Positions 22,250 through 43,271 of a DNA stretch of 64,000 nt are shown here, piece after piece (the first letter of the stretch is position 1; every line of letters starts with the position of its first letter). Position numbers and translations under genes: made by a program. The stretch spans positions 1,488,001 through 1,552,000 of the forward strand of contig NC_003070.9 in assembly GCF_000001735.4 (NCBI RefSeq), in the 5' to 3' direction. The DNA is from Arabidopsis thaliana (taxonomy: Eukaryota; Streptophyta; Magnoliopsida; Brassicales; Brassicaceae). Below the pieces are notes generated by a model. The model worked only from the letters and a program-made list of their open reading frames with translations, was not told where the DNA came from and ran no database searches.

Positions 22250-22468
22250 CTTTCTCTTGCTCCTGGTGAAATCTCAAACGCAGTTGAAAAATTGAAATCA
22301 CACCTTAACTTAACCACTTGATTGAACCGGCGTATTCTTTCCGGTTTGTTATTTCGGTTTGAATAAACCAATAATTTGATCTTCTTCTTCTTCTAGGTTT
22401 TTCCAGTCAACGACTCTCAGAACTCAGATTTGAAGCAAAACATCAATCGGAGAAGGAAGAAAGAAAAG
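22250..22468. promoter_or_regulatory. Divergent promoter
   Basis: These 219 bases separate the start codons of the small unknown gene (minus) and the first TMEM97-like gene (plus). They must hold both leaders and promoters. CCGG-containing and AACC words (GAACCGGCG, TTCCGGTTTG, TTTCGGTTTG) cluster at 22324-22364. No clear TATA box is seen. Confidence 0.5.
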
Positions 22469-23485
22469 ATGGGAGCTTTAGGGAAGCTAATCGACGTAGC
22501 TCTCTTCGTATACTTTGTTTCAATGGCGATAATTGCGCCGCTCATCGACGGGCAAACCTCACTTCCTTCAGGAATATATCCAGCGTTTCTCACCGATCTG
22601 AAAAGCAAGTACATTGCCGATTTTGGAGATTACTTGCTCATGGAGAAGCCGCATTTCCTAGTTGGACTCGTTTGGCATGAGCTTCTGTTCTTATGGCCGC
22701 TCTCCATTGCTAACGTCTACGCCATTCTTGCCGGAAAGTCGTGGTTTGGTACCACCTGCTTGTTGTATGGAGCTTCCCTCGTCACTTCCATGGTACAGTG
22801 GTTTCTATTTTGTCTCTACATTTACTGAATTATTGGTCTGAACTTGGGAGACTTTGTTTAGTGTTGATCTTAGGAGATTATCTGCAAGCTGATTATGTTC
22901 AAGTTTATAACTTTGTCCTGCAAGCATCATTAGAGCTAATGTTGGTTAACGGTTTGCTGAAAATAAGTTAAAGTTCTCAACTTTGCTTAGCGTTCTCCTT
23001 TTCAATGTGAATTATATATCTGTCACTGTTTCTTGGCGGAATGGTGTTATTTTCTTATCTGCAGTGACTTATTAGTTAAAGTTCTTAACTTTTCTATATA
23101 TTCTCAATGTTATTTGTAGATTATTAGTGTTTCTTGGTGGAAATATATATCTTTCCCTGCAATGAAAAACCTTGAAGTGCAATATGCTGGTCTGCGTTCT
23201 TGTGGACCTATGGTTTATGCATTGGCTATATTCTGCTTGACTATGTGCCTATTTGTTTTTTGCTTCTCATCTTCTTACCTTTTTCTTCCTGTAAATGTTT
23301 AGGCTGCAATCCTAGGAGATATGATAGGTTCAGGGAAGGCATCTGATCGATTGCTAATGATGTATGTGCCTTTCATGGGTTTTGGGATTCTGGCTGTTCT
23401 TCGTGGCTTAGTTTATCGATCCACCAAAAACACTGGATCTTCTGGCAAGAGATCCACTATCATGCCCAGAAGAAAGCTGGCCTGA
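22469..23485 (+). CDS. TMEM97/sigma-2 receptor-like membrane protein, copy 1
   Basis: Two exons, 22469-22792 and 23303-23485, encode 168 residues. Four hydrophobic segments are visible, the first at about residues 7-25. The layout matches the EXPERA fold of TMEM97, an ER membrane family linked in animals to sterol handling. The plant role is not known to me. The tail is basic and ends PRRKLA, a possible dilysine-like ER signal. The ATG is the first in the frame. A second copy lies 457 bp downstream on the same strand with the intron at the matching codon. This corresponds to AT1G05210. Confidence 0.9.
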
Positions 23486-23942
23486 GATTCAAAAAAAAAA
23501 AAAAGCAGTTGATTTTTCTCTCTGGAAGACTTACTCATCCTTTTTCTGTATATGCCTAGAAAGAGGTGTTTATTTTTCCTTGTGAAAACTTTATTGCTTT
23601 CTGATTTATGTGGAATTCTTGTTTGTTGACTCAGCAACAATGAAATGTTTACTTGGTTGATATAAAATTCATTCTTGACACTACTGCCTGTGCTCTTCCA
23701 GTTCCGCGCCACTGGACTAGGGTCTTAACTTGGTCCTCTTTGAGTCTTGTTTGAATTGGTTCGGTGTAATTAAACCAGCAATTAGTTATAAAAATTAGAA
23801 AGAGAGAAATAGCTCGGGTCTGTTGGTTCGGTTAAGTAAAACCAACAATTAAATAAACCGTGCGTGAATCTCAAGAATTCGTCTCTTCTTCTTCTTCTGT
23901 TTCATTTTTGTGGTCAACGACTCGGGAGAGAGGCAAAAAAAG

Positions 23943-24656
23943 ATGGGAGCTTTGGGGAAGCTGATCAACATCTCTCTGTTTTTCTTCTTCGCACTGATGG
24001 CTATCAATGTACCGCTTCTCAACGGTCAAATACTATTTCCTGGAATCTACCCGAAGCTCCTCACCGATCTGAAAGACTGGTACAGCTCTGAGTTCAACGA
24101 TTACCTCTTCATAGAGAAGCCTCTTTTCTTCGTTGGACTCGTCTGGCATGAGATCATATTCCTATTGCCTCTCTCCATTGTCAACATCTACGCCATTCTT
24201 ACCAGCAAGTCGTGGTTTGGTACCACTTCTTTGTTGTATGGAGCTTCTTTCCTCACTTCCATGGTACATTTTCTTCTTTCTCTTCATTTTCATTTGGCTC
24301 AGTCTATGTATATTTGTTTTTGATGTTGTTGATCTGTAAATGTTACAACTTTCTTGATTTGGAAACGAAAATTCTTTTGGAGTTCTATATTTTAGTATAT
24401 GTGATTGCTCTGCTTCTCTGAGAAGGCTAGATTGTACCGCTTTGTTTGTAAGTTTCTTTCACGTTTTGTTTTTGTGTGTTTTGTGAATCTCTAGGCTGCT
24501 ATACTTGGAGACATGATAGGTTCAGAGAAGGTGACTAACAAATTGCTATTGGCGTATTTGCCTTTCGTGGGTCTTGCAATTCTGGCAATGCTTCGTGGTC
24601 TGGTGACTTGTTCGACCAAAAGATCAACTGTTTTAGCCAGGAGAAAGCTTGCTTGA
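23943..24656 (+). CDS. TMEM97/sigma-2 receptor-like membrane protein, copy 2
   Basis: Two exons, 23943-24263 and 24495-24656, encode 160 residues. It aligns over its length with the preceding gene: both begin MGALGKLI, share GLVWHE and KSWFGTT, break at SM before the intron, resume with AAILGDMIGS and end RRKLA. It is eight residues shorter, with most of the loss in the loop before the tail. The pair is a tandem duplication. The leaders also share GTCAACGACTC, so the duplicated unit reached into the promoter. Matches AT1G05220. Confidence 0.9.
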
Positions 24657-29024: not shown

Positions 29025-30792
29025 CTTTTCTTATACTCCGGAAACTGAAAGCAAACCCTAGAAGCAAAAAAAAGTAGAGAGTTTTGTCAAAATTTAGGGT
29101 TTGAAGAAGAAGGGAAATTTCTTCGAGGCTGGAAAAATATGGCAATACTTTTGTCCACGTCAACAACTTTACAACCTTCTTTTTGTATGAACAACAATAA
29201 CTTAAATCTTTCTTCGGAGTCGTTTATCTTTCTTCTTGAAGATCATACAAAATGATATAAGCAAACAGAAGAATTGGAGATGATTGTAGGAAACAAAGGA
29301 CCCACTAATTGAAAGCAAGAAAAAAGAGCCTTGCATAAAAAAGACATCACAATCACAAATTAATTTGTTATTGAATAACCAACCCAAAAATAATGAATTT
29401 TCACATACTCAAAATTATTCGAAACTACCGATTTTTTACCCTTTTAAAAGAAAAGAAAAAAACTAATCAGCAGACTGAAATAAAAACTATGATTGATTCA
29501 AGAGTCATATCATATGTAGTGTAGATGGAAATCAATTGTTGTCCAAAGAAAAAACTTTAAAATTTCTACACTATAATAGCTTTGATGGATGGTGATTTAA
29601 TTTAAAATTTCGAGGTATTTTGATCAGTTTTGATTTAGATGGGATAGGAAAGAGAAGACGAAAAGAGAAATGTTGGACTCATTTGTTCAAAGCAAATAAA
29701 ATGGGAAAAAGTAGGTACAAATAAATTCCCAACTCTATCCTGTTTATTAAAAAAACAATATTTTCGTGAGAACAAAACAAAATTTAATTAAATATAATCA
29801 TTAGTAGATTTTCAAAAAATAAAAACTCTTCAGGAAAAAGTGTAAACTACTATTTGGCGATTAAGAAAGAAAAAAAAATTGAAATGAAAAAAATAGTATT
29901 ATATCTGTGCACCTGTGCGACGGACCAACATATAGTTATTATACAACTTACAACCAACGTGACATAAGGCCTGGGTGATGTATTAATTTTTTCCAGCTAT
30001 TTCTTATCATCATCATCGTATTTAAACGTTTTTATTACACACATTAATATGTAAATGTATACTACTACTATAAAGTATATACACGTGTTTATATATAAAA
30101 CCAAACGTATAATGAAAATAAGGATATACGAAGAGAATACAAACCTTTCTGTTTTTTTTGGTAGGCAAGGGAATACTAACCTTTAATCTTTCCTCTTTAT
30201 TGTTTTCTTGAAGGTTTCATCTCTGACTATGCAGAAATTGATAAGATTATTTAAAGAAGAATACAATAAATCAGAAAGTCAGAAAGCAAATTAGGAGAGG
30301 AATGAAAGATATTAGAGGCAAGAAATCAATTAATTAATGCTAAAGAAGGCAAAATTTAAGACAAAATATAGATGACTAACTGAAAATTCAACATACAGGA
30401 TATATTAAATTATAAAAAAAAAACATCATGAAAGTGAGAGTTTTATAAAGATGCTAAGAAAACTGAAGTGTAATGGATCCAATGATACTTTAAACAAATA
30501 AATTTGTGTACATGAATTAATGGATAAAATAAAGAAAACAGCAGAAATGATGAGGTTTTCGAGACATACACTGGGATATAGGAAGAAGCGACGAAACCCT
30601 AGAGGGAGAGAGAGAGAAGAGTAGAGCGGTGTCTGGTCTGAGATTTGTTTCTCGGAAAACCGCTGATGGTTTTGTGAAGCGCGGTTTTGTTGGCGAGCAA
30701 AAGGTTTGAAAGGTAGGTGCAAATCTTGGAGGAAGAGAGATGAGAGAGTAATGACAGAGAGAATTGAGAGGGTGCAATGAAATTAAATGGTG
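29025..30792 (-). other. HDG2 leader and probable 5' UTR intron
   Basis: A GTATGT donor preceded by CCCAGT at 30569-30570 and acceptors TTCTAG or TTTCAG about 20-35 bases upstream of the HDG2 ATG frame a likely leader intron of about 1.5 kb. The first leader exon (30570 to about 30790) is CT rich. The two overlapping minus-strand ORFs in it (30426-30804) are consistent with a low-stop CT-rich leader, not genes. An L1-box word lies in the intron at 30052-30059. Confidence 0.5.
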
Positions 30793-30822
30793 CGAGAGGG
30801 ACACTTAATTATCCTACACGCT

Positions 30823-30834
30823 TATATATATATA
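30823..30834 (-). promoter_or_regulatory. TATA box of HDG2
   Basis: On the minus strand the run reads TATATATATAAG, placed about 30-40 bases upstream of the CT-rich leader. A GA microsatellite lies next to it. Confidence 0.5.
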
Positions 30835-30999
30835 GAGAGAGAGAGATATGTTACAATTTATTTTATTTATGTTACAAAATTATGTGTTGTTTTTCATCTT
30901 ATATACAATGTCAACCTAAAATAATTTTATTTTTTATTTATTTAAAATATTATAATGTGGTGAGGAATGACGGCTAACGGTCTATGAGCCTATGAGACT

Positions 31000-31007
31000 T
31001 ACATTTA
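31000..31007 (-). promoter_or_regulatory. L1-box upstream of HDG2
   Basis: TACATTTA on the plus strand is TAAATGTA on the gene's strand, a perfect match to the L1-box TAAATG(C/T)A bound by HD-ZIP IV proteins. It lies about 170 bases upstream of the TATA run. HDG2 and its relatives bind this element, so self- or cross-regulation is plausible. Confidence 0.6.
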
Positions 31008-32917
31008 TCTATTAGATATGTAGTTATTTTTAAAAAATCATTAGCATTATTCATAACTTATGCATATGCAATAAATCACCACTTAACAAAATTAACTATA
31101 TTAAAAAAAGATTTAACTATATTGAAATTTGCTTTAATACAGTTCTCCATTTACAGAAAAAGTTAGACAATAGTCCCCATTTGTCAAGGATACAATTTTA
31201 AAAGTAATTTTCTGAAATTTTAATACTCTTAGATTATTTATAATATGGAAAAAAATTATATAGTTTTTTAACTAAAATTCAATGACTTGTTATAGTTAAT
31301 ATTTATCTTTATGAGATATAAATTTAATTTTTACTTTCAAAAAATATGACTATTATATTTTTAACTATTTTATTTTATTATTATTTCATATCTTTGTTAT
31401 AAATTTAATTGTAAAGAAGGAAAATTTCATGATTCTTCTTCCACATGGCATTTTCTTAAATATTATAGAAGTTTAGGTTGTATTATTGTTAGTCAGACAG
31501 AAGTTGATTGAGTGATGTATTTATTTTATTTCATTTAAAAGAAGAAAATCTAAAAATCATCACCTTAATTTTGAGTTTTGTTTACGAAACAATTGTTTTT
31601 TCAATTTAAGGAAGTCAATGAAATATCACTTTTTTCACAGTAAGACTTCATTTTACATGCCTAGAAATATTAATTACTTTGTGGCCCAAGCATTTATAAC
31701 TATAACGTGCAATTAAGCTATTTAAAATACGGATCACCCATTAAAAAGGTGATAATTTGTAAAAGCCATGCATTCATCTTAATTTATCACGCGAATATAT
31801 AGAGAAATATACTGCGTATTTAATTACCTAGTTCTTAAGCTTTGTTTTTTTTTTTAAAGTCCTTATAGCTATAGCTTTAACACTCAAGTTTTTCTTTTCA
31901 GTAAGTTTATACTTTACCTAGATTCTTTAAAATAACTATATATAAAAAAACAATAACCCAACTTATTTCTGATTTTTACTGTATATATGTAGGTACAGAT
32001 ATATAGATGGAGTTATACGTACGTACGTATGCGATAGGGTGGCGAATAGTTTCGACGCATTAAATGTGTACACAGAGGCTGCATGGGCTTTAGGCCATTT
32101 ACTGCTCTCATGCCTCTCTTGCACTTTAACCTCCTCTTCCTTCTTCGTACTCTCCTACTAAAAAAAACTAGTAATTCAACGCCTAACATTTTAGTTTTTT
32201 CTTTTTTTTTTTTTTTTTTTTTTAGTTTTTTCTTTTTTCCTGCTACATCACTAAAAGTTAATTATTTCAAAAAAGAATTGCTACAATACTATTCACATTT
32301 TAAGTTTGTTTCATCCTCGTAAGTCTCAAATATTTATTTTTAGTTTATTTCTTTTTTTTGTCAAACTTTTAGTTTATTTCAATTAGTGTTTTTTCTGCCA
32401 ATATGATCAAATCTGAGATTCAAAATGGAATTCTTCTGTTGAAAAAATGGATGCTTTTGTAATAAATTCAAGATCGTAGTTTTTTTTTGTTTCTGGGCTT
32501 CGTATATGGGCCATAAGACGGAAGTAAACTTTTGGCCCATTATATATTTTATCCCCAACGAGAATGGCAAGGCCGAAAGTCTCATTCTCCGAGAGTGGAA
32601 AGTTAGTTAAGGAAAATGATTGATTTTTTTGTTTTGTTTTGCATTAGTCTATAGGACGACTTGTTTCACAAGAAACTAGCCGTATATTGTAATATCCAAT
32701 CACTGAATTGAGCAACTTGGATAGTTTACATTGAGAATGCAGGAACGTGGATTCCACAAACTATAACAGTTTATTATAGTTTTTAACTTTTGAGAGCTAA
32801 GGACTAATAAAAAAATTCCCCAAACTACATCTTCTCCAAAGTCAATAGCTTTTCAAAGCGCAAAAGATGATTTGAAGCTTTCTTAATCGTTGCATGATTT
32901 CGATTTCTTCTAATTGT
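31008..32917. other. AT-rich spacer between HDG2 and PER1
   Basis: No gene supported. It has a very AT-rich stretch at 31010-31980, an ACGTACGTACGT palindrome-like run near 32018-32029, a 22-base T tract at 32202-32223 and GGCCCA words near 32509 and 32535. Confidence 0.55.
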
Positions 32918-33102
32918 GGAAATTTAATATATTTAATTGCAGCACCAGCAGAGATCAAGAAGATAGTGGAGGCCATGCAATGTCCTCCTCGAGCTCCTCT
33001 TGTATTTCAACCCTCATTAAGAAACAGAGGAAAAATGCAAATGGGATTATCTAAATCTTGTTTGGCATTTCTCCATGGACTATTTCAAAGCCGCTGGGTG
33101 AT

Positions 33103-33110
33103 CTATAAAA
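33103..33110 (+). promoter_or_regulatory. TATA box of PER1
   Basis: CTATAAAA about 92 bases upstream of the PER1 ATG. The mirror copy at 39261-39268 serves PER2. Confidence 0.65.
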
Positions 33111-33201
33111 GGCCTGAGAATGTCTCCTTCATCTTCATCTCCAAAGCTCGTTCTCACCTTACTTGGCAAACACTCAACGAAGAAAGGAGAGAGAGACGGT
33201 A

Positions 33202-34447
33202 ATGGCGATCAAGAACATTCTCGCCCTTGTGGTTCTTCTTAGCGTGGTTGGAGTTTCTGTCGCCATTCCACAGTTGCTTGACCTCGACTACTACCGGTCT
33301 AAGTGTCCCAAGGCAGAGGAAATTGTTCGTGGTGTCACAGTACAATATGTTTCTCGCCAGAAAACCCTTGCCGCTAAACTTCTAAGGATGCATTTCCATG
33401 ATTGTTTCGTCAGAGTAAGCTTGGTTCACTTGTTCGAGACTGTTAACCAAGGGATATGAAAAAACTAGCTAGTCCTAACACTCTTTTGTAATGATTCATG
33501 TAGGGATGTGATGGTTCCGTTCTTCTGAAATCTGCAAAGAATGATGCGGAAAGAGACGCTGTCCCCAACCTGACCCTGAAAGGTTATGAAGTGGTGGATG
33601 CGGCCAAGACAGCGCTGGAGAGGAAGTGTCCTAATCTCATTTCTTGCGCTGATGTTCTTGCCTTGGTCGCCAGAGATGCCGTGGCAGTGGTAACATTCCA
33701 TTTTCGCAATGGACTAGTGATTTTGTCATTCCAAAACTGAAGACTATAGTATGTATATAACTTATTAATTGTCTTTGAACAGATCGGGGGACCATGGTGG
33801 CCGGTTCCATTGGGCCGCAGGGATGGACGCATCTCGAAATTGAACGATGCATTGCTAAATTTACCATCTCCTTTCGCCGACATAAAGACGCTGAAGAAGA
33901 ACTTTGCCAACAAGGGTCTTAACGCTAAAGACCTTGTGGTTCTCTCAGGTATGTCTGCAGCTGGCACCTTATGATGTGCAATTCTCAAAAGAGTTATCAA
34001 TTTGAAAGCTGAACAAAAATGGTTTCTTGAGTAGGGGGTCACACCATTGGAATCTCTAGTTGCGCTCTCGTCAACAGTCGTCTCTACAACTTCACAGGAA
34101 AGGGCGATTCTGACCCATCCATGAACCCTAGCTACGTGAGGGAATTGAAGAGAAAGTGCCCGCCTACAGATTTCAGAACCTCACTGAACATGGACCCAGG
34201 CAGTGCGTTGACATTCGACACTCACTACTTCAAGGTCGTGGCTCAGAAGAAAGGGCTCTTCACATCTGACTCTACGCTTCTCGATGACATTGAGACCAAA
34301 AACTACGTTCAGACTCAGGCCATTCTCCCTCCTGTGTTTTCTTCTTTCAATAAAGATTTCTCCGATTCCATGGTCAAACTTGGTTTCGTCCAAATTCTTA
34401 CCGGCAAAAATGGTGAGATCAGGAAGAGATGCGCCTTCCCTAACTAA
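33202..34447 (+). CDS. PER1: Class III peroxidase 1, secreted
   Basis: Secreted heme peroxidase that oxidises phenolics with hydrogen peroxide in the cell wall or apoplast. Four exons, 33202-33414, 33504-33689, 33783-33948 and 34035-34447, encode 325 residues with GT-AG junctions. A signal peptide covers about residues 1-22. The distal heme site is RMHFHDCF with GCDGSVLL after it; the proximal histidine lies in LSGGHTIG. The eight conserved disulfide cysteines are all present. The intron positions match those of RCI3 in this window. The coding sequence is the same as that of PER2 on the other strand, so expression reads cannot separate the two from coding sequence alone. AT1G05240 by order. 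Confidence 0.95.
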
Positions 34448-34778
34448 TTTGGATCGATCAGACCGGGTTTCGGATGATTTTGAGTCTACACGTTTTTCTC
34501 TGCTTATTTTCTTTCTTTTTCTTTTTTCTTTCACGGAAGTTTGAGCTTTGGTGTTGTCTTCTTCTGTTTCTTCCATGAATAATTGTTTTTTGTTGAGTAA
34601 CTTTACATTTGTATTCTTTACGGTGACTGTGTTTTGTAATGGAAAAAGTTTGTTTCGAATTCATCCGTTAAACGTAAACCTAAATTAAACAAAAATTATA
34701 ATTGGAAAGCAAAACATTTTGTAAGCTTCGTGGTGTTTTTACTATGAATTAATATTTATGTTTGTTTTTCACGGTTAA

Positions 34779-35480
34779 TGGTTATGGTTATTAACCGTTT
34801 TAATAATTTATTTTCACGGTTAATGGTTACAATAATAAATGATCTATTTTCACGGTTAATGGTTACGGTTATTAACCGTTTTATACGGTTATGATTACGG
34901 TCGGGGTATGGTTAATAAACGGTCTGGTTACGATCCAAAATACGGTTACGGTTAGAATTTGGTCATACTTTGATGACACCTTTTAGGGGTTTGGATGTTG
35001 TGTCCAATTAGTTTACAAAAAATTGAAAATTTAACACTTATAAGAAAAAACCTTTTAGTTTTAATAGTAGTAATATAAAAATATTGTTTAAAAAACATTT
35101 TTAAATAAAATAAAAATATTGTTTTAAAAACATTTTTAAATAAAATAAAAATAAGTGTTAAAAAGTTAAATTAGGTGTAAACTATATTGAACCGATGACG
35201 CCTCTTAGGGGTTTGGACGTTGTGTCCAATTAGTTTACACAAAATTTAAAAATTTAACACATATAAGAAAAAACTTTAAAGTTTAAAAACCTTATAGTTT
35301 TAATAGTATTAATACAAAATATAGTTTTAAAAACATTTTTAAATAAAATAAAAATAAGTGTTAAAAAGTTAAATTAGGTATAAACCATATTGAACCGATG
35401 ACGCCTCTTAGGGGTTTGGACGTTGTGTCCAATTAGTTAACACAAAATTTAAATATTTAACACTTATAAGAAAAAACCTT
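34779..35480. repeat. CGGTTA array and three diverged ~200-bp direct repeats
   Basis: Directly inside the left arm, 34771-34960 carries repeated CGGTTAATGGTTACGG words, partly palindromic. Then the block GGGGTTTGGACGTTGTGTCC plus AATTAGTTTACACAAAATTT, TTAACACTTATAAG and long A/T runs occurs three times, starting near 34968, 35195 and 35393. No coding potential. Confidence 0.7.
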
Positions 35481-35585
35481 ATAGTTTTAGTAAGAAAATA
35501 AAAAAAGGAAGAAAAACAAAAATAAGGAAGGAGGAAAGTAAAATACCTTGTTGGGCTTGGGAAGCAAAAAGGGCCCAAACAGCAA

Positions 35586-35726
35586 AGTCCATTCGAAAGC
35601 GTAATGTGGGTCCACCGTTCTCTTGTGGTTGTCTTCTCTCGTGAGAATTTTTTCTGATCTTCCGCTCGAAAAGTCCATTCGAAACCCTTAGACGAAACTC
35701 TGAGAATTTTTTCCGATCTTCCTCTT
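35586..35726. repeat. Short duplicated block in the peroxidase spacer
   Basis: AAGTCCATTCGAAA and GAGAATTTTTTC(T/C)GATCTTCC occur twice about 60-85 bases apart. Downstream, TAACCGTTGGGATTATA is also doubled near 36122 and 36149. The 35700-36070 segment has higher GC and looks like a gene leader without an ORF behind it. Confidence 0.55.
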
Positions 35727-36469
35727 GTTCATCCTCTCACACGATCAGATCTGACGGCGAAGGCGAAGAAGCAAACGTACGTTCATCGGAGTGTTGGCGT
35801 CGACATTAGCTTGGCGATTGATAGTTTGATTTTCATCTTCAGATTCTAAAATCAAATCCAGTTCAACTGAAATCGATCTCGATTGGAGAGGGTTATTCAA
35901 TCAATGATGATGAACTCGAACTCACGGCTTACTTCAATGTCGATCGGCGAAGAGAAAAAAATGAGAATGATGATAGATTTTGGTTTTCGTTTCTCGAAGA
36001 AGAAAAAATAAGAAAGAAGTAGAGGTGAATAGAGAATTTTGATTTCTCAAGTATGAAGAAGAAGAGGAAGAAGAGAATGCGTGAGAGTGTATTTATAATA
36101 AGCAAACAAGGTTCTTGGTTCTAACCGTTGGGATTATATTTATTAATCTAACCGTTGGGATTATAGAGGAAATCTAAACTTAGATCCGATTTCCATTTTA
36201 CTAATATCAATTTAAACAAGAGGAAATTTCGTTTTAGTTGTTTCCTTTTTTCGATGCCTTTGGTTATTTCCTTCTTGTGATATAACGGTTAGAAGAATCA
36301 TCTTTTTGATCAAGAATAGATGGTTTTATAAGTATGTAACTTCCTTTTGTCAATATTATTTGCTTACTAATTTCATTCTAAATGGTTTTATGCTTTCTTT
36401 TAGGATCAGGTTTATTTGTTGTATACAGAAAAACAATTTCCGTTCCTAACATGTTGTGCTGGTACAGGC

Positions 36470-36699
36470 AATGTTTGTTTTTGGAGCAGAAGCTAGATTC
36501 TGAGGACTTGATTGACATCAGGCTACCAATGCTAGTCTATGTGTCAGGAGCCATGAATGATTGATTGCTTTGGTTTTGAACCAGCGAGGAACGCTACCAT
36601 ATCCTCAATCTTGATTCTTACCCCTACATTCTACAACTCCATGGCTATGTTCAGTTCCCTCAGAGGAAACCACATTGTCTTCTTTGATGTTAGTAATGT
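36470..36699 (+). pseudogene. Decayed cellulose-synthase-like (CSLD-type) fragment
   Basis: Broken pieces of a cellulose synthase superfamily protein, in order on the plus strand. MF-FGAEA is followed by EDLID-IRLPMLVYVS, which is joined directly to GAMN; the normal REKRPGY...KKA between them is missing. Then come ILNLDS-PYI (family: ILNLDCDHYI), YNSMAM, QFPQR, and NHIVFFDV (family: NHNTVFFDV). Frames shift and stops occur between pieces, so it is dead. IRLPMLVYVS followed by GAMN is typical of the CSLD clade by memory. The fragment covers about 100 residues of a ~1,100-residue protein, around the first catalytic Asp. It lies in the spacer of the peroxidase inverted repeat, and no other CSLD part is seen nearby. 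Confidence 0.85.
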
Positions 36700-37338
36700 A
36701 TACACTCTTTAGTGCCAGTGGTCGTTGACCATTAGTAAAGCCATGGGTATTGTTATAATATGGAAGGCGAATTTAGATCTAAAGAGCTCATCCAACATAA
36801 AGAAGAGAGATTTAAAAGAACAAATTGCAAGTATCATTTGAAGCAGAGACAATGAGAAGAGCTCCATCCCTAAACAACAACCGTGTCAAGCATGGTGCCT
36901 AATGTCTGAACTATGTTTGATGACATATGCTCAATCGTAGTCATTCACCTTTTGAATTTTGTCTTTTCTCATATACCGCACAAGTAGATTCCAATATCTA
37001 ACCAACATCCAGTCACAATTTTGAATACGACAAATCAACGAAGCCCCACATAAACAAACAATCAAAGAAATTTTAATCTCATAATAAAGGTAAACGACAG
37101 TAATGGTACACGTATTATTAGCTAGTACAGTGAACAACAAATCAACACAATAATGTTGAACTAGTTCGTTGCATCAGGAACATCATAGTAGCGTATAATA
37201 AGTGTGTTTTGTTACCGGGCCTAAGGTGTAAGGTCTTGTATGAAAGTTCTGTTTTCTTGATGGATATAGTCCAGAGAAGATCCGAATCCGATTCGACTGT
37301 GATTTTCTCTTCTTTAACCGTTTTAACTATGAATTAAT

Positions 37339-37516
37339 ATTTTTGTTATTGATGGCCTTAACTTTAGTATGTTTTACTTCGGCCTTAACATTCATCAATA
37401 ACAAAAATAAAACACACCTATGATAAGGCCAATGTTAAGGCCAAAGTAAAACATACGAAATTTAATATGTAAGGCCAAAGTCCAATGTTATCATATGTAA
37501 GGCCAAAGTCCAATGT
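37339..37516. repeat. Nested foldback cluster
   Basis: ATTTTTGTTATTGATG (37339-37354) is the exact reverse complement of 37393-37408. The 26 bases at 37367-37392 pair with 37431-37456 with one mismatch. TAAGGCCAAAGTCCAATGT then occurs twice (37470-37488, 37498-37516). A further inverted pair, GAATTAATATTT near 37331 and AAATATTAATTC near 37615, spans the inner edge of the right arm. Confidence 0.8.
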
Positions 37517-37592
37517 GTTTGTTTCCCACCTATGATCCTAAAATTATCAATAAAAATGAAAACTCCTTGACATAAAAACATAAATAAATTTT

Positions 37593-39454
37593 TTAACCGT
37601 GAAAAACAAACATAAATATTAATTCATAGTAAAAACACCACGAAGCTTACAAAATGTTTTGCTTTCCAATTATAATTTTTGTTTAATTTAGGTTTACGTT
37701 TAACGGATGAATTCGAAACAAACTTTTTCCATTACAAAACACAGTCACCGTAAAGAATACAAATGTAAAGTTACTCAACAAAAAACAATTATTCATGGAA
37801 GAAACAGAAGAAGACAACACCAAAGCTCAAACTTCCGTGAAAGAAAAAAGAAAAAGAAAGAAAATAAGCAGAGAAAAACGTGTAGACTCAAAATCATCCG
37901 AAACCCGGTCTGATCGATCCAAATTAGTTAGGGAAGGCGCATCTCTTCCTGATCTCACCATTTTTGCCGGTAAGAATTTGGACGAAACCAAGTTTGACCA
38001 TGGAATCGGAGAAATCTTTATTGAAAGAAGAAAACACAGGAGGGAGAATGGCCTGAGTCTGAACGTAGTTTTTGGTCTCAATGTCATCGAGAAGCGTAGA
38101 GTCAGATGTGAAGAGCCCTTTCTTCTGAGCCACGACCTTGAAGTAGTGAGTGTCGAATGTCAACGCACTGCCTGGGTCCATGTTCAGTGAGGTTCTGAAA
38201 TCTGTAGGCGGGCACTTTCTCTTCAATTCCCTCACGTAGCTAGGGTTCATGGATGGGTCAGAATCGCCCTTTCCTGTGAAGTTGTAGAGACGACTGTTGA
38301 CGAGAGCGCAACTAGAGATTCCAATGGTGTGACCCCCTACTCAAGAAACCATTTTTGTTCAGCTTTCAAATTGATAACTCTTTTGAGAATTGCACATCAT
38401 AAGGTGCCAGCTGCAGACATACCTGAGAGAACCACAAGGTCTTTAGCGTTAAGACCCTTGTTGGCAAAGTTCTTCTTCAGCGTCTTTATGTCGGCGAAAG
38501 GAGATGGTAAATTTAGCAATGCATCGTTCAATTTCGAGATGCGTCCATCCCTGCGGCCCAATGGAACCGGCCACCATGGTCCCCCGATCTGTTCAAAGAC
38601 AATTAATAAGTTATATACATACTATAGTCTTCAGTTTTGGAATGACAAAATCACTAGTCCATTGCGAAAATGGAATGTTACCACTGCCACGGCATCTCTG
38701 GCGACCAAGGCAAGAACATCAGCGCAAGAAATGAGATTAGGACACTTCCTCTCCAGCGCTGTCTTGGCCGCATCCACCACTTCATAACCTTTCAGGGTCA
38801 GGTTGGGGACAGCGTCTCTTTCCGCATCATTCTTTGCAGATTTCAGAAGAACGGAACCATCACATCCCTACATGAATCATTACAAAAGAGTGTTAGGACT
38901 AGCTAGTTTTTTCATATCCCTTGGTTAACAGTCTCGAACAAGTGAACCAAGCTTACTCTGACGAAACAATCATGGAAATGCATCCTTAGAAGTTTAGCGG
39001 CAAGGGTTTTCTGGCGAGAAACATATTGTACTGTGACACCACGAACAATTTCCTCTGCCTTGGGACACTTAGACCGGTAGTAGTCGAGGTCAAGCAACTG
39101 TGGAATGGCGACAGAAACTCCAACCACGCTAAGAAGAACCACAAGGGCGAGAATGTTCTTGATCGCCATTACCGTCTCTCTCTCCTTTCTTCGTTGAGTG
39201 TTTGCCAAGTAAGGTGAGAACGAGCTTTGGAGATGAAGATGAAGGAGACATTCTCAGGCCTTTTATAGATCACCCAGCGGCTTTGAAATAGTCCATGGAG
39301 AAATGCCAAACAAGATTTAGATAATCCCATTTGCATTTTTCCTCTGTTTCTTAATGAGGGTTGAAATACAAGAGGAGCTCGAGGAGGACATTGCATGGCC
39401 TTCCACTATCTTCTTGATCTCTGCTGGTGTTTCAATTGAATATATTAAATTTCC
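37593..39454 (-). repeat. Inverted repeat, right arm (holds PER2)
   Basis: Right arm, the mirror of 32918-34778. It is one base longer because of an extra A in GTGGAAGGCC (left arm GTGGAGGCC). The arms are tail to tail across a 2,814-base spacer. Confidence 0.93.
37924..39169 (-). CDS. PER2: Class III peroxidase 2, secreted, coding-identical to PER1
   Basis: Four exons in transcription order: 38957-39169, 38682-38867, 38423-38588, 37924-38336, encoding 325 residues that I read as the same as PER1, with identical introns. The function, signal peptide, heme sites and cysteines are as for PER1. The promoter is shared only for the first 280 bases upstream of the ATG; beyond 39454 the flanks differ, so the two genes may be regulated differently. 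PER1 and PER2 converge, so read-through from either would make RNA complementary to the other. AT1G05250 by order. Confidence 0.95.
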
Positions 39455-41734
39455 TATGAAACACAATTGACTATTGTTTATAAGATAAAATAATGGTCAT
39501 TTCGCCTTATAAAACGGAATTTTTCACATTAGACATTCACGAATGTCTTGCACGTTATCATTTAGTGGACATTGTTCAAACGACAACTCATAAAATAACA
39601 TTAGAAATATGTATCTGTTTTCAGTTACTAAGACCCAACTTGCTAATTAAATTCTTAAGTAATTTCTTTGGGAAAAATTGAATAGTTGAATACGGTCTAT
39701 AACGAGTGTGGAACACACGTTCCGTGACTATTCTTCTAGACGCCAGGTCATGGAAGAGGGCATGTTTACTTAGTCGCTAGAAAAATAACGAACCCGTCCA
39801 CAAAACCTTAGTCAACTAGACAACTAGGCAGAACCGGCCGACCCGAACAGAAATCTGCAAATCCACATATTTCTAACATGTTTTGGCCCCGGTCCGAATT
39901 GTTTCCGCTTATAAATTACAGGGAAAATCCTTTTTCAAGATATTTCCAAAAGAGTTTAAAATTTAAAGATTTCTTTCATCAAAATCTTCTCTAGCCTCAC
40001 TTATTTTTCCAGGATGAAAATCTAAAAATATCCTCTCAAGTTTTTTTTTTGTTTGTTTAGAATCCACATATATATATATCAGTTTATTAGAAGATGCCAA
40101 CGTTTGACAGACTTAAAGAAATAAATTGGCGTGGTAATCTGACGAAACGCCACTCCTGATGATAGGAAAATATTTCGAGCAGTTGAAATGCTCTCGTCCG
40201 TTTATGAATAATTCAGTTCTATAGAGTAGTTGTGTGAAATTTTAATTTGTTCTCCTCCCCTAGTATAATATAATGTTTTAATATCATTGCGCATGTTACA
40301 AAACAAAGATTAGGCATCAAGATATAAGAAACACCAATTTAGGACAAAACAAAAATTCCAAAAAAAGAGTATACGTTGTAAAGTTGGACATATATATTAG
40401 TTTTATGTTCTAGTGACTATTGTATCGGTTATGACTTATATTATTAAACTACGTTGTAATTTGAAATTTTATTTCACTTAAAAACATGCATTACAAGATT
40501 AATTCGGATAATGATATAACGGCAACACTAATCGTCTATCAGAAAACATGACTATACGTGTCCTACTGTTCGTACATATATGTTTAACAAAAGTAATTTT
40601 ACTAGGATCATTACCATATGGTATATCTTAGCATCTGAAATTAGTCTATCTACCAAGTCGCAGTTAATCCTATATACTTCTATTATACATTAAAGAACTT
40701 AAAAAAAAAAGAAGATCTTAAGAATATAAAACAAGGTTAATAATCTTGGAATACTCTCTTGCTCATTAGCAGTTGTTCTTTTGCGGTTCTTTTAGTTGTA
40801 CTACTGCGGATTAGGTCGAGTACGTATTGTAGTTTTGGAATTAAAAAAAATATCACTCTCGAAACGAGTTTTTTTTTTTTTTTTGGATGGGAAGATGTCG
40901 GCAAAAACGAGTTGTTCTTCAGTGAAAAATCAAAGTACGTTATGTCTTGAGGTGATTGATCATCCAAAAATTTAGAGTATTCAAGATTACCAATATTCTA
41001 GTACTCGATCGCGACTAAAATAAATGAATCCAAAATAAGATTCCATATAATCTCAATTATGTTATAAAAAAAATTACAGTTGTTGATTATGACATCAGAA
41101 CACTCGATACTTTTAATTACATTCAGCTAATCTTTCTATGTTACTAACTCACTAAAATCTACTGTTGGCTTGACTTTTTGTATCGATGATTATGACATCA
41201 TAACGCTCAACACAATCTATTGCGTTTTGGTATATAAAAAAACAAAAATCGTTGATTATGACATCATAACGGTCATTAAAATCAAGACTTTCTATGTTAC
41301 TAACTTACTATAGCTTGATTTATGGACCAAACATTCACCATCTTTTACCATATCTAATACTTTTGATATTTTTAGTATCAGAGTATATTTTTGATATTTT
41401 GGTTAATATATATTAGAAAACAAATTCGCTACGTGTTTTAGAACATACAAATTACAAATTAGTTTTACAAATTACAGGAAAATAAATATAAGTGGAAAGA
41501 CGTAAACTTTAATTAACTTTTTTTTATAAAAAAACTCTTCCAAATTGCCTCATTGAAGTGTAACATTATCTCTTCATTAGTAAGAGTATTAAAAAACCAT
41601 TTTGTAATTATGAATAAAAATTTCTCAAATTTTTATTGTGGCGCTGATTATGAGCCAGAAAAATAAAGTAGAAAAAGAGCACATGTTAGTTAGCTTAGAT
41701 GGACCCACTTCTACTACCAAACATGCAAACTCTT
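39455..41734. other. AT-rich spacer between PER2 and RCI3
   Basis: No gene supported. It holds scattered A/T tracts and, at 41082-41275, a set of direct repeats given separately. Confidence 0.55.
41082..41275 (+). repeat. Three direct repeats in the RCI3 promoter
   Basis: GATTATGACATCA is found at about 41085, 41188 and 41253. Two copies continue to GATTATGACATCATAACG, and all share similar flanks. TTTCTATGTTACTAACT also occurs twice, near 41132 and 41290. The set is 550-750 bases upstream of the RCI3 ATG. TGACATCA resembles a bZIP half-site, but no binding is known to me. Confidence 0.7.
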
Positions 41735-41744
41735 CTATATAAAC
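41735..41744 (+). promoter_or_regulatory. TATA box of RCI3
   Basis: CTATATAAAC about 90 bases upstream of the RCI3 ATG. Confidence 0.65.
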
Positions 41745-41826
41745 CTATGTTAACGTCTCAATACATCACACAACATAATCCTCCCAAACAGAGAGAGTCT
41801 CAAAAATTAAACCAACAAATTTAAAG

Positions 41827-43271
41827 ATGAATTGCTTGATAGCTATAGCTCTTTCAGTCTCTTTCTTTCTTGTGGGAATTGTTGGACCGATCCAAGCTCA
41901 ATTGCAGATGAATTTCTATGCCAATTCTTGTCCTAATGCTGAAAAGATTGTTCAAGATTTTGTTTCAAACCACGTTTCTAATGCTCCTTCTCTTGCTGCT
42001 GCTCTCATTAGAATGCATTTCCATGACTGTTTTGTCCGAGTAAACTCTTCTTTTCCCTCTTTTTTTTTCTTTTTTTCTTTATATAGTGGAACATTCTGAA
42101 TAACTACGAAACTAATTAATGACGGATATATATACATGTACATGTAGGGTTGTGATGGATCAGTGCTTATAAACTCAACGTCAGGAAACGCAGAGAGAGA
42201 CGCGACTCCTAACCTAACGGTTCGAGGGTTTGGCTTCATCGACGCAATTAAATCTGTGCTTGAAGCTCAATGCCCTGGAATTGTCTCTTGCGCTGATATT
42301 ATCGCTCTAGCTTCTCGCGACGCTGTCGTTTTCACCGTAAGCATCATATTCATCACATAACATTACTCTAAATTAAAAAATCTTAATTAGTATTTCTCAT
42401 CATAAATTCTGACCTTTGGTATGTTGTAGGGAGGACCGAATTGGAGTGTACCGACCGGAAGAAGAGACGGGAGGATATCAAACGCAGCGGAGGCATTAGC
42501 CAACATTCCTCCTCCAACCAGTAATATCACCAATCTTCAGACACTCTTTGCAAACCAAGGACTTGATCTTAAGGACCTCGTTTTACTATCCGGTAAAGCC
42601 TAAACTCATTCCACACTCTAAGAATAAAAAATTATTGAGTGTTTTAGAAGAAAATATTTGCGTTTAAGATTTATAAAACATGTGTTAATCATACACACAA
42701 AAAACGACTATTATGATGGTTTCACAATAACCGAAAAGTAATACTTATTATGATTTCAATAAAGAAAATTAGAAAGTACTGTTTTTATGATATAGAGAAC
42801 ATTTCAACCTAGAGTTTCAAGATATATTTACAAGAAATATATGTGTTATAAACAGGGGCTCACACTATTGGTGTATCTCACTGCTCGTCTTTCACAAACC
42901 GTCTCTACAATTTTACGGGTCGTGGAGGCCAAGATCCGGCTTTGGACAGCGAGTACGCAGCCAATCTCAAGTCTAGAAAATGTCCTAGCCTCAACGATAA
43001 CAAGACCATCGTAGAGATGGATCCAGGGAGCCGCAAAACATTTGATCTAAGTTATTACCAGCTCGTACTCAAGCGTAGAGGTCTGTTTCAATCAGACTCT
43101 GCTCTCACCACTAACCCCACAACACTTTCAAACATAAACCGGATCTTGACGGGTTCGGTGGGGAGTTTCTTCTCTGAGTTTGCCAAGTCAATGGAGAAAA
43201 TGGGTCGGATCAATGTCAAGACTGGTTCAGCTGGAGTGGTTAGGAGGCAATGTTCCGTTGCAAATAGTTAA
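41827..43271 (+). CDS. RCI3: Class III peroxidase 3, rare cold-inducible
   Basis: Secreted class III peroxidase, known as RCI3/PER3, linked to cold, dehydration and low-potassium responses through production of reactive oxygen. Four exons, 41827-42039, 42148-42336, 42430-42592 and 42856-43271, encode 326 residues. A signal peptide ends near PIQA-QLQ (residues 1-24). The distal site is RMHFHDCF, the proximal one LSGAHTIG; the eight disulfide cysteines are present. Intron places and phases are the same as in PER1/PER2, but the protein differs in many places, so this is an older duplicate. AATAAA-like signals lie near 43400. Confidence 0.96.

Follow-up and report, generated by a model that had tools for sequence, protein, structure and literature searches.

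A 64,000-nucleotide stretch of the Arabidopsis thaliana genome (contig NC_003070.9, positions 1,488,001 to 1,552,000; referred to here as the window, with positions counted from its first letter) carries two identical class III peroxidase genes that converge, tail to tail, in the arms of an inverted repeat. A 1809-bp core is the same in both arms, a short outer edge is diverged, a diverged fragment of the gene tail lies in the spacer, the flanks are unrelated to each other, and both reading frames are intact. This combination probably reflects an older inverted duplication whose arms have recently been homogenized by gene conversion. The genes are taken to be PER1 and PER2 (At1g05240 and At1g05250, or AtPrx01 and AtPrx02), based on the identical proteins described in print and on the gene order of this region; the placement of PER1 in the left arm and PER2 in the right one follows an earlier note on this sequence and the presumed order of the locus numbers. 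We also take the respective UniProt entries to be P0DI10 and Q67Z07 and the locus to be autosomal (chromosome 1).

A repeat search of positions 30000 to 42000 found the cores (32970-34778 and 37593-39401) to be 100% complementary over 1809 nt, with 0 differences, and extended the arms outward to 32918 and 39454 at 94% identity. In a gapped alignment, the full arms (1861 and 1862 bp) differ by three substitutions (left-arm positions 32934, 32940, and 32942) and a single 1-bp indel (an extra A at right-arm position 39402), all within the outer 53 columns. The alignment ends exactly at the interval 32918-39454, for which the earlier note had proposed a tail-to-tail inverted duplication of a peroxidase gene with arms of ~1.86 kb. 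The same note described the two genes as agreeing base for base in exons, introns, leader, and about 330 bases past the stop codon, and this description proved accurate: there are no mismatches in the 232 bp before the ATG, in any of the 4 exons and 3 introns, or in the 331 bp past the stop. Coding constraint is not the cause of this identity, because 831 of the 1809 core bases are noncoding. Comparison of the window with itself (blastn; E values up to 1e-6, at least 60 bp) returned six repeat pairs, and the peroxidase arms are the only inverted pair among them. Chance was ruled out as the origin of the match: when the window was shuffled 10 times with its dinucleotide content kept, exact inverted matches reached no more than 16 to 19 bp.

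The PER1 gene consists of four exons, which join into an uninterrupted reading frame of 325 codons, and its three introns all have GT-AG borders. The introns measure 89, 93, and 86 bp in both arms, and the corresponding exons on the opposite strand of the right arm encode exactly the same sequence as the left-arm gene. A TATAAA motif is kept in each arm, at 33104 (+) and 39262 (-). Class III peroxidases, the secreted plant class of heme peroxidases, have eight conserved cysteines and the distal and proximal motifs HFHDCF and GGHTIG; the arm protein has 8 Cys residues, with HFHDCF at position 64 and GGHTIG at position 189. In a phmmer search, it matched the solved peroxidase structures of soybean, royal palm, banyan, and horseradish (best E value 3.7e-72, residues 29-325).

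The arms are more alike than the homologous edges that flank them, a pattern expected of an inverted pair homogenized by gene conversion: 0 differences are found in 1809 core columns versus 4 in the 53 columns of the outer edge. The probability that all four differences would fall by chance within the outer 53 of 1862 columns is 5.9e-7 (1.2e-6 for either end; Fisher's test gives the same result), although these values are optimistic, as the edge was bounded after the differences were known. Adding the 28-bp tail copy in the spacer, with its two mismatches, makes the comparison 5 substitutions in 81 columns versus 0 in 1809 (P = 1.3e-7); the edge and this copy are both about 6 to 7% diverged, the core 0%. 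If 7e-9 substitutions per site per year is taken as the rate, the absence of differences in the core limits its age to less than ~0.12 million years (95% bound) and the edge alone would be ~4 million years old, both very rough figures given that the diverged segments comprise 53 and 28 columns.

Past the arms, all five nested flank comparisons (three outer and two inner) were no better than shuffles, which did as well in 318 of 500, 83 of 500, and 105 of 300 cases for 200, 500, and 1000 bp of outer flank and in 360 of 500 and 500 of 500 cases for 200 and 500 bp of inner flank. The statement of the earlier note that nothing matches outside the arms thus holds for the adjoining flanks but fails for the spacer, where positions 37320-37347 contain a third, diverged copy of the gene tail that resembles 34735-34762 at 26 of 28 positions, in the PER1 orientation; none of 500 shuffled spacers was as good. 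The 13-mer TTAACCGTTTTAA at 37314, which overlaps this copy by 7 bases, is otherwise confined, within the window, to the tandem array into which the left arm's inner end falls (34791). The junction of TTAACCGTTTTAA and the tail copy could be a scar left by a replication-type rearrangement that took place at the palindromic array. The right arm opens, at 37593, with TTAACCGT, which the window contains eight times, five on the + strand and three on the - strand; one of the eight occurrences (6247) is outside the locus. When folded as single-stranded DNA, positions 37300-37600 gave a z score of -3.36, which none of 100 shuffles equaled. The left array (z = -1.38; 21 of 200 shuffles as good) folds no better than shuffles, and neither of the outer edges stands out (left, z = 0.10, 112 of 200 shuffles; right, z = -1.60, 12 of 200).

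For a perfect core with a diverged rim, an older pair with recent conversion is the plainest account. The inverted duplication would have come first, with a template-switch-like scar remaining on its inner side; later, the inverted copies or sister chromatids would have paired, and one arm would have been copied over the other. That conversion took place, how it proceeded, and when it did so relative to the duplication are all inferred from a single sequence. The alternative posed in the earlier note, a very recent event or gene conversion, is supported as such, and the diverged edges make it lean toward conversion. Some evidence on age comes from Eutrema salsugineum, whose TsPrx02 has been tabled, in a study of Brassicaceae peroxidases, as the ortholog of At1g05250; the same paper describes AtPrx01 as repressed in roots “of both species” and names four recent A. 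thaliana gains, with neither Prx01 nor Prx02 among them (PMC10856686). This wording implies a Prx01 in Eutrema as well, and the PER1/PER2 pair may therefore be old. Several points weigh against this scenario. TsPrx01 and NoffPrx01 each have 0 occurrences in the main text of that paper, and its Table 1 counts five A. thaliana gains versus the four named in the text (PMC10856686). The statement on Eutrema is indirect, and its Prx01 and Prx02 could represent an independent duplication. The divergence step rests on four sites, because the edge is short and there is no homology past it, and the inner arm end has no diverged margin on the mirror side. The opposite-orientation tail match in the spacer is weaker (13 of 500 shuffles as good), and AT-rich likeness adds some noise. 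Finally, changes clustered at junctions can also result from error-prone break repair.

A single recent inverted duplication, produced by template switching or break-induced repair less than ~0.1 million years ago, is a possible but less probable origin; the edge changes would then be repair errors or would stem from older homology used in the repair. The 0 of 1809 differences are what a young copy is expected to show, the flanks have no homology beyond the edges, and the inner end falls in a palindromic tandem array, beside the possible scar and the strong foldback. Replication-based rearrangements favor palindromes and foldbacks. However, the clustering of the 4 differences in the 53 edge columns and the 7% divergence of the tail copy demand extra assumptions under such a recent origin, both Prx01 and Prx02 are implied in Eutrema, and the other three breakpoint regions fold ordinarily (see the z scores above). 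Assembly collapse, by which two real and slightly different arms were given one consensus and their identity overstated, is quite improbable: identical inverted arms of 1.8 kb are longer than Sanger and short reads, but the edges differ, the flanks are unrelated, and the identical protein has two separate UniProt entries (PMC3515866), although these may rest on the same assembly. As to the warning in the earlier note that an assembly could collapse or flip the region, a purely artefactual duplication would leave the differing edges and unrelated flanks unexplained, and the collapse of slightly different arms keeps the low probability just given. Returning to conversion, it is rather doubtful that the pair has been held identical by repeated arm-to-arm exchange since before the Arabidopsis/Eutrema split, with concerted evolution keeping a double dose of one root-hair peroxidase. 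In that case, a pair of arms identical to each other would be expected within each of the related species.

Short reads, quantitative PCR primers, RNA interference triggers, guide RNAs, and transfer DNA (T-DNA) flanking tags inside the arms cannot distinguish PER1 from PER2. Because the arms are identical over the coding region and 331 bp beyond, differences between the two genes published from short reads are suspect. In salt-treated A. thaliana, AtPrx01 was listed as repressed and AtPrx02 as not significant (PMC10856686). Another data set gives exactly -4.01 for both AtPrx01 and AtPrx02 (PMC7923490), the values for PER1 and PER2 in wild-type siliques are near-equal, 10.644 and 9.311 (PMC5231383), and an array paper has a joint entry, “AtPrx1,2” (PMC3091679). 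The main text of the report on the root-hair triple mutant prx01 prx44 prx73 contains 0 occurrences of PRX02, although an identical gene sits 2.8 kb away; the single PRX2 match belongs to a docking passage that names PRX24Gv (PMC9141322). A silencing construct that used the full PRX2 reading frame (PMC9740967) should hit both genes. Earlier work cited in the same paper found altered lignin when prx2, prx25, or prx71 carried a T-DNA, and the paper itself reports no apparent phenotype for its own prx2 T-DNA line (PMC9740967); the unchanged twin gene may bear on these differing outcomes. In the relevant passages of another paper, Prx01 is named, Prx02 is not, and nothing is said of the PER1/PER2 duplication (PMC8999671). 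Among the matches listed in the open-licence literature, none, judging by title or the start of the abstract, treats the PER1/PER2 locus as an inverted repeat or a conversion tract. If the pair was indeed homogenized by conversion, it would give studies of genome evolution a compact, clearly delimited test case of how inverted gene copies convert one another in a selfing plant.

The layout of the locus also bears on function, a question separate from the three origins weighed above. Convergent read-through could generate double-stranded RNA and, from it, 21- to 24-nt small RNAs repressing PER1/PER2 or their relatives, and the locus does have the tail-to-tail, near-identical arms characteristic of PAI-type silencing. 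Such a natural hairpin-RNA silencing locus is nevertheless very improbable here. Each arm has its own TATAAA and a 331-bp 3′ region that looks complete, the two arms share their 232 bp of promoter-proximal sequence, and a 2814-bp spacer separates the convergent ends. For both genes, silique expression values as well as regulation have been reported (PMC5231383, PMC7923490), and transcriptional reporters of PRX01 show activity in root hairs (PMC9141322), with the qualification that RNA-based reports cannot separate PER1 from PER2 and that a promoter reporter says nothing of the endogenous transcript. The layout and the published expression data, none of which measure small RNA, make a silencing role of the PER1/PER2 locus unlikely, and the pair would rather supply a single root cell-wall peroxidase in double dose. 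No structured RNA was matched by Rfam at the gathering score anywhere in the window. The consensus of the root-hair element has 0 matches in positions 32000-40500 and 1 match elsewhere in the window.

The spacer has no stop-to-stop frame longer than 106 codons. Its 60-codon frame at 36382-36561, which is reminiscent of a cellulose-synthase motif, was considered as a captured cellulose-synthase fragment and dropped, as searches of Pfam (E values up to 1) and of solved structures (E values up to 10) gave 0 matches. Positions 34972-35504 contain AT-rich tandem copies of ~203 bp (84.7% and 87.4% identity between copies), and the 37300-37600 segment beside the right arm resembles a small foldback element. 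On the other side, ~700 bp left of the arms, there is a T-rich 44-bp run (32195-32238; 83% T matches). A Pfam scan detected a further peroxidase exon at 42852-43271, where At1g05260 (AtPrx03) would be expected from the gene order that we assume. The frame 18068-19849 matches the solved Glutamate receptor 3.4, an entry that we take to be the A. thaliana protein (GLR3.4), over residues 17-461 and 488-580, with differences only at the ends of both stretches, which presumably mark splice sites; this match supports the species assignment and, with it, the naming of the peroxidase pair. The direct-order frames 22397-22828 and 23868-24323, the first of which matches the EXPERA family, are 74% alike over 375 bp and appear to be an ordinary older tandem duplicate. 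The features of the peroxidase locus are listed in Table 1.

Table 1. Features of the PER1/PER2 inverted repeat (positions in the window)
Feature	Position	Strand	Description
Left outer edge	32918..32969	+	52 bp; diverged homology to 39402-39454
Left arm, identical core	32970..34778	+	1809 bp; PER1 gene, promoter-proximal region, 331 bp past stop
PER1 coding region	33202..34447	+	Exons 33202-33414, 33504-33689, 33783-33948, 34035-34447; 325 aa
36-bp tandem array with short palindromes (CGGTTAAT...ATTAACCG)	34766..34883	+	Contains inner end of left arm
Spacer	34779..37592		2814 bp; AT-rich repeats; two ends without further mutual homology
Possible chimeric scar	37314..37347	+	TTAACCGTTTTAA (37314-37326) as in left array, with overlapping 28-bp tail copy
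Foldback-prone AT-rich palindromes	37338..37465		Near inner end of right arm; inverted repeats of 17 bp (perfect) and 35 bp (91%)
Right arm, identical core	37593..39401	-	1809 bp; PER2 gene, opposite orientation
PER2 coding region	37924..39169	-	Exons 38957-39169, 38682-38867, 38423-38588, 37924-38336; same 325-aa protein
Right outer edge	39402..39454	-	53 bp; diverged homology to left edge

The closest parallel within the same species is PAI1-PAI4 of A. thaliana Ws, likewise two tail-to-tail genes with shared sequence identity; that locus is distinguished by a foreign-promoter fusion, a minority of transcripts reading into the palindrome, methylation, and small RNAs (PMC3203196). It is an example of an inverted gene repeat from which small RNAs arise, through read-through that starts at the foreign promoter and enters the palindrome (PMC3203196). 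Unlike PAI1-PAI4, the PER1/PER2 pair has its own promoter-proximal DNA in both arms and a 2.8-kb spacer. Sex-chromosome palindromes, reported for example in willow (PMC7023750), are large inverted repeats whose arms stay alike through gene conversion between them. The PER1/PER2 repeat differs from them in being autosomal and small, with one gene per arm and with conversion inferred from one sequence, and resembles them in its near-perfect arms with divergence outside. The identity of the PER1 and PER2 proteins was already known, the pair having served as an example of identical proteins with separate entries in the UniProt paper, where the likeness concerns the proteins only (PMC3515866); the DNA adds the inverted order, the identical introns, leader, and 3′ region, and the step in divergence between core and edge.

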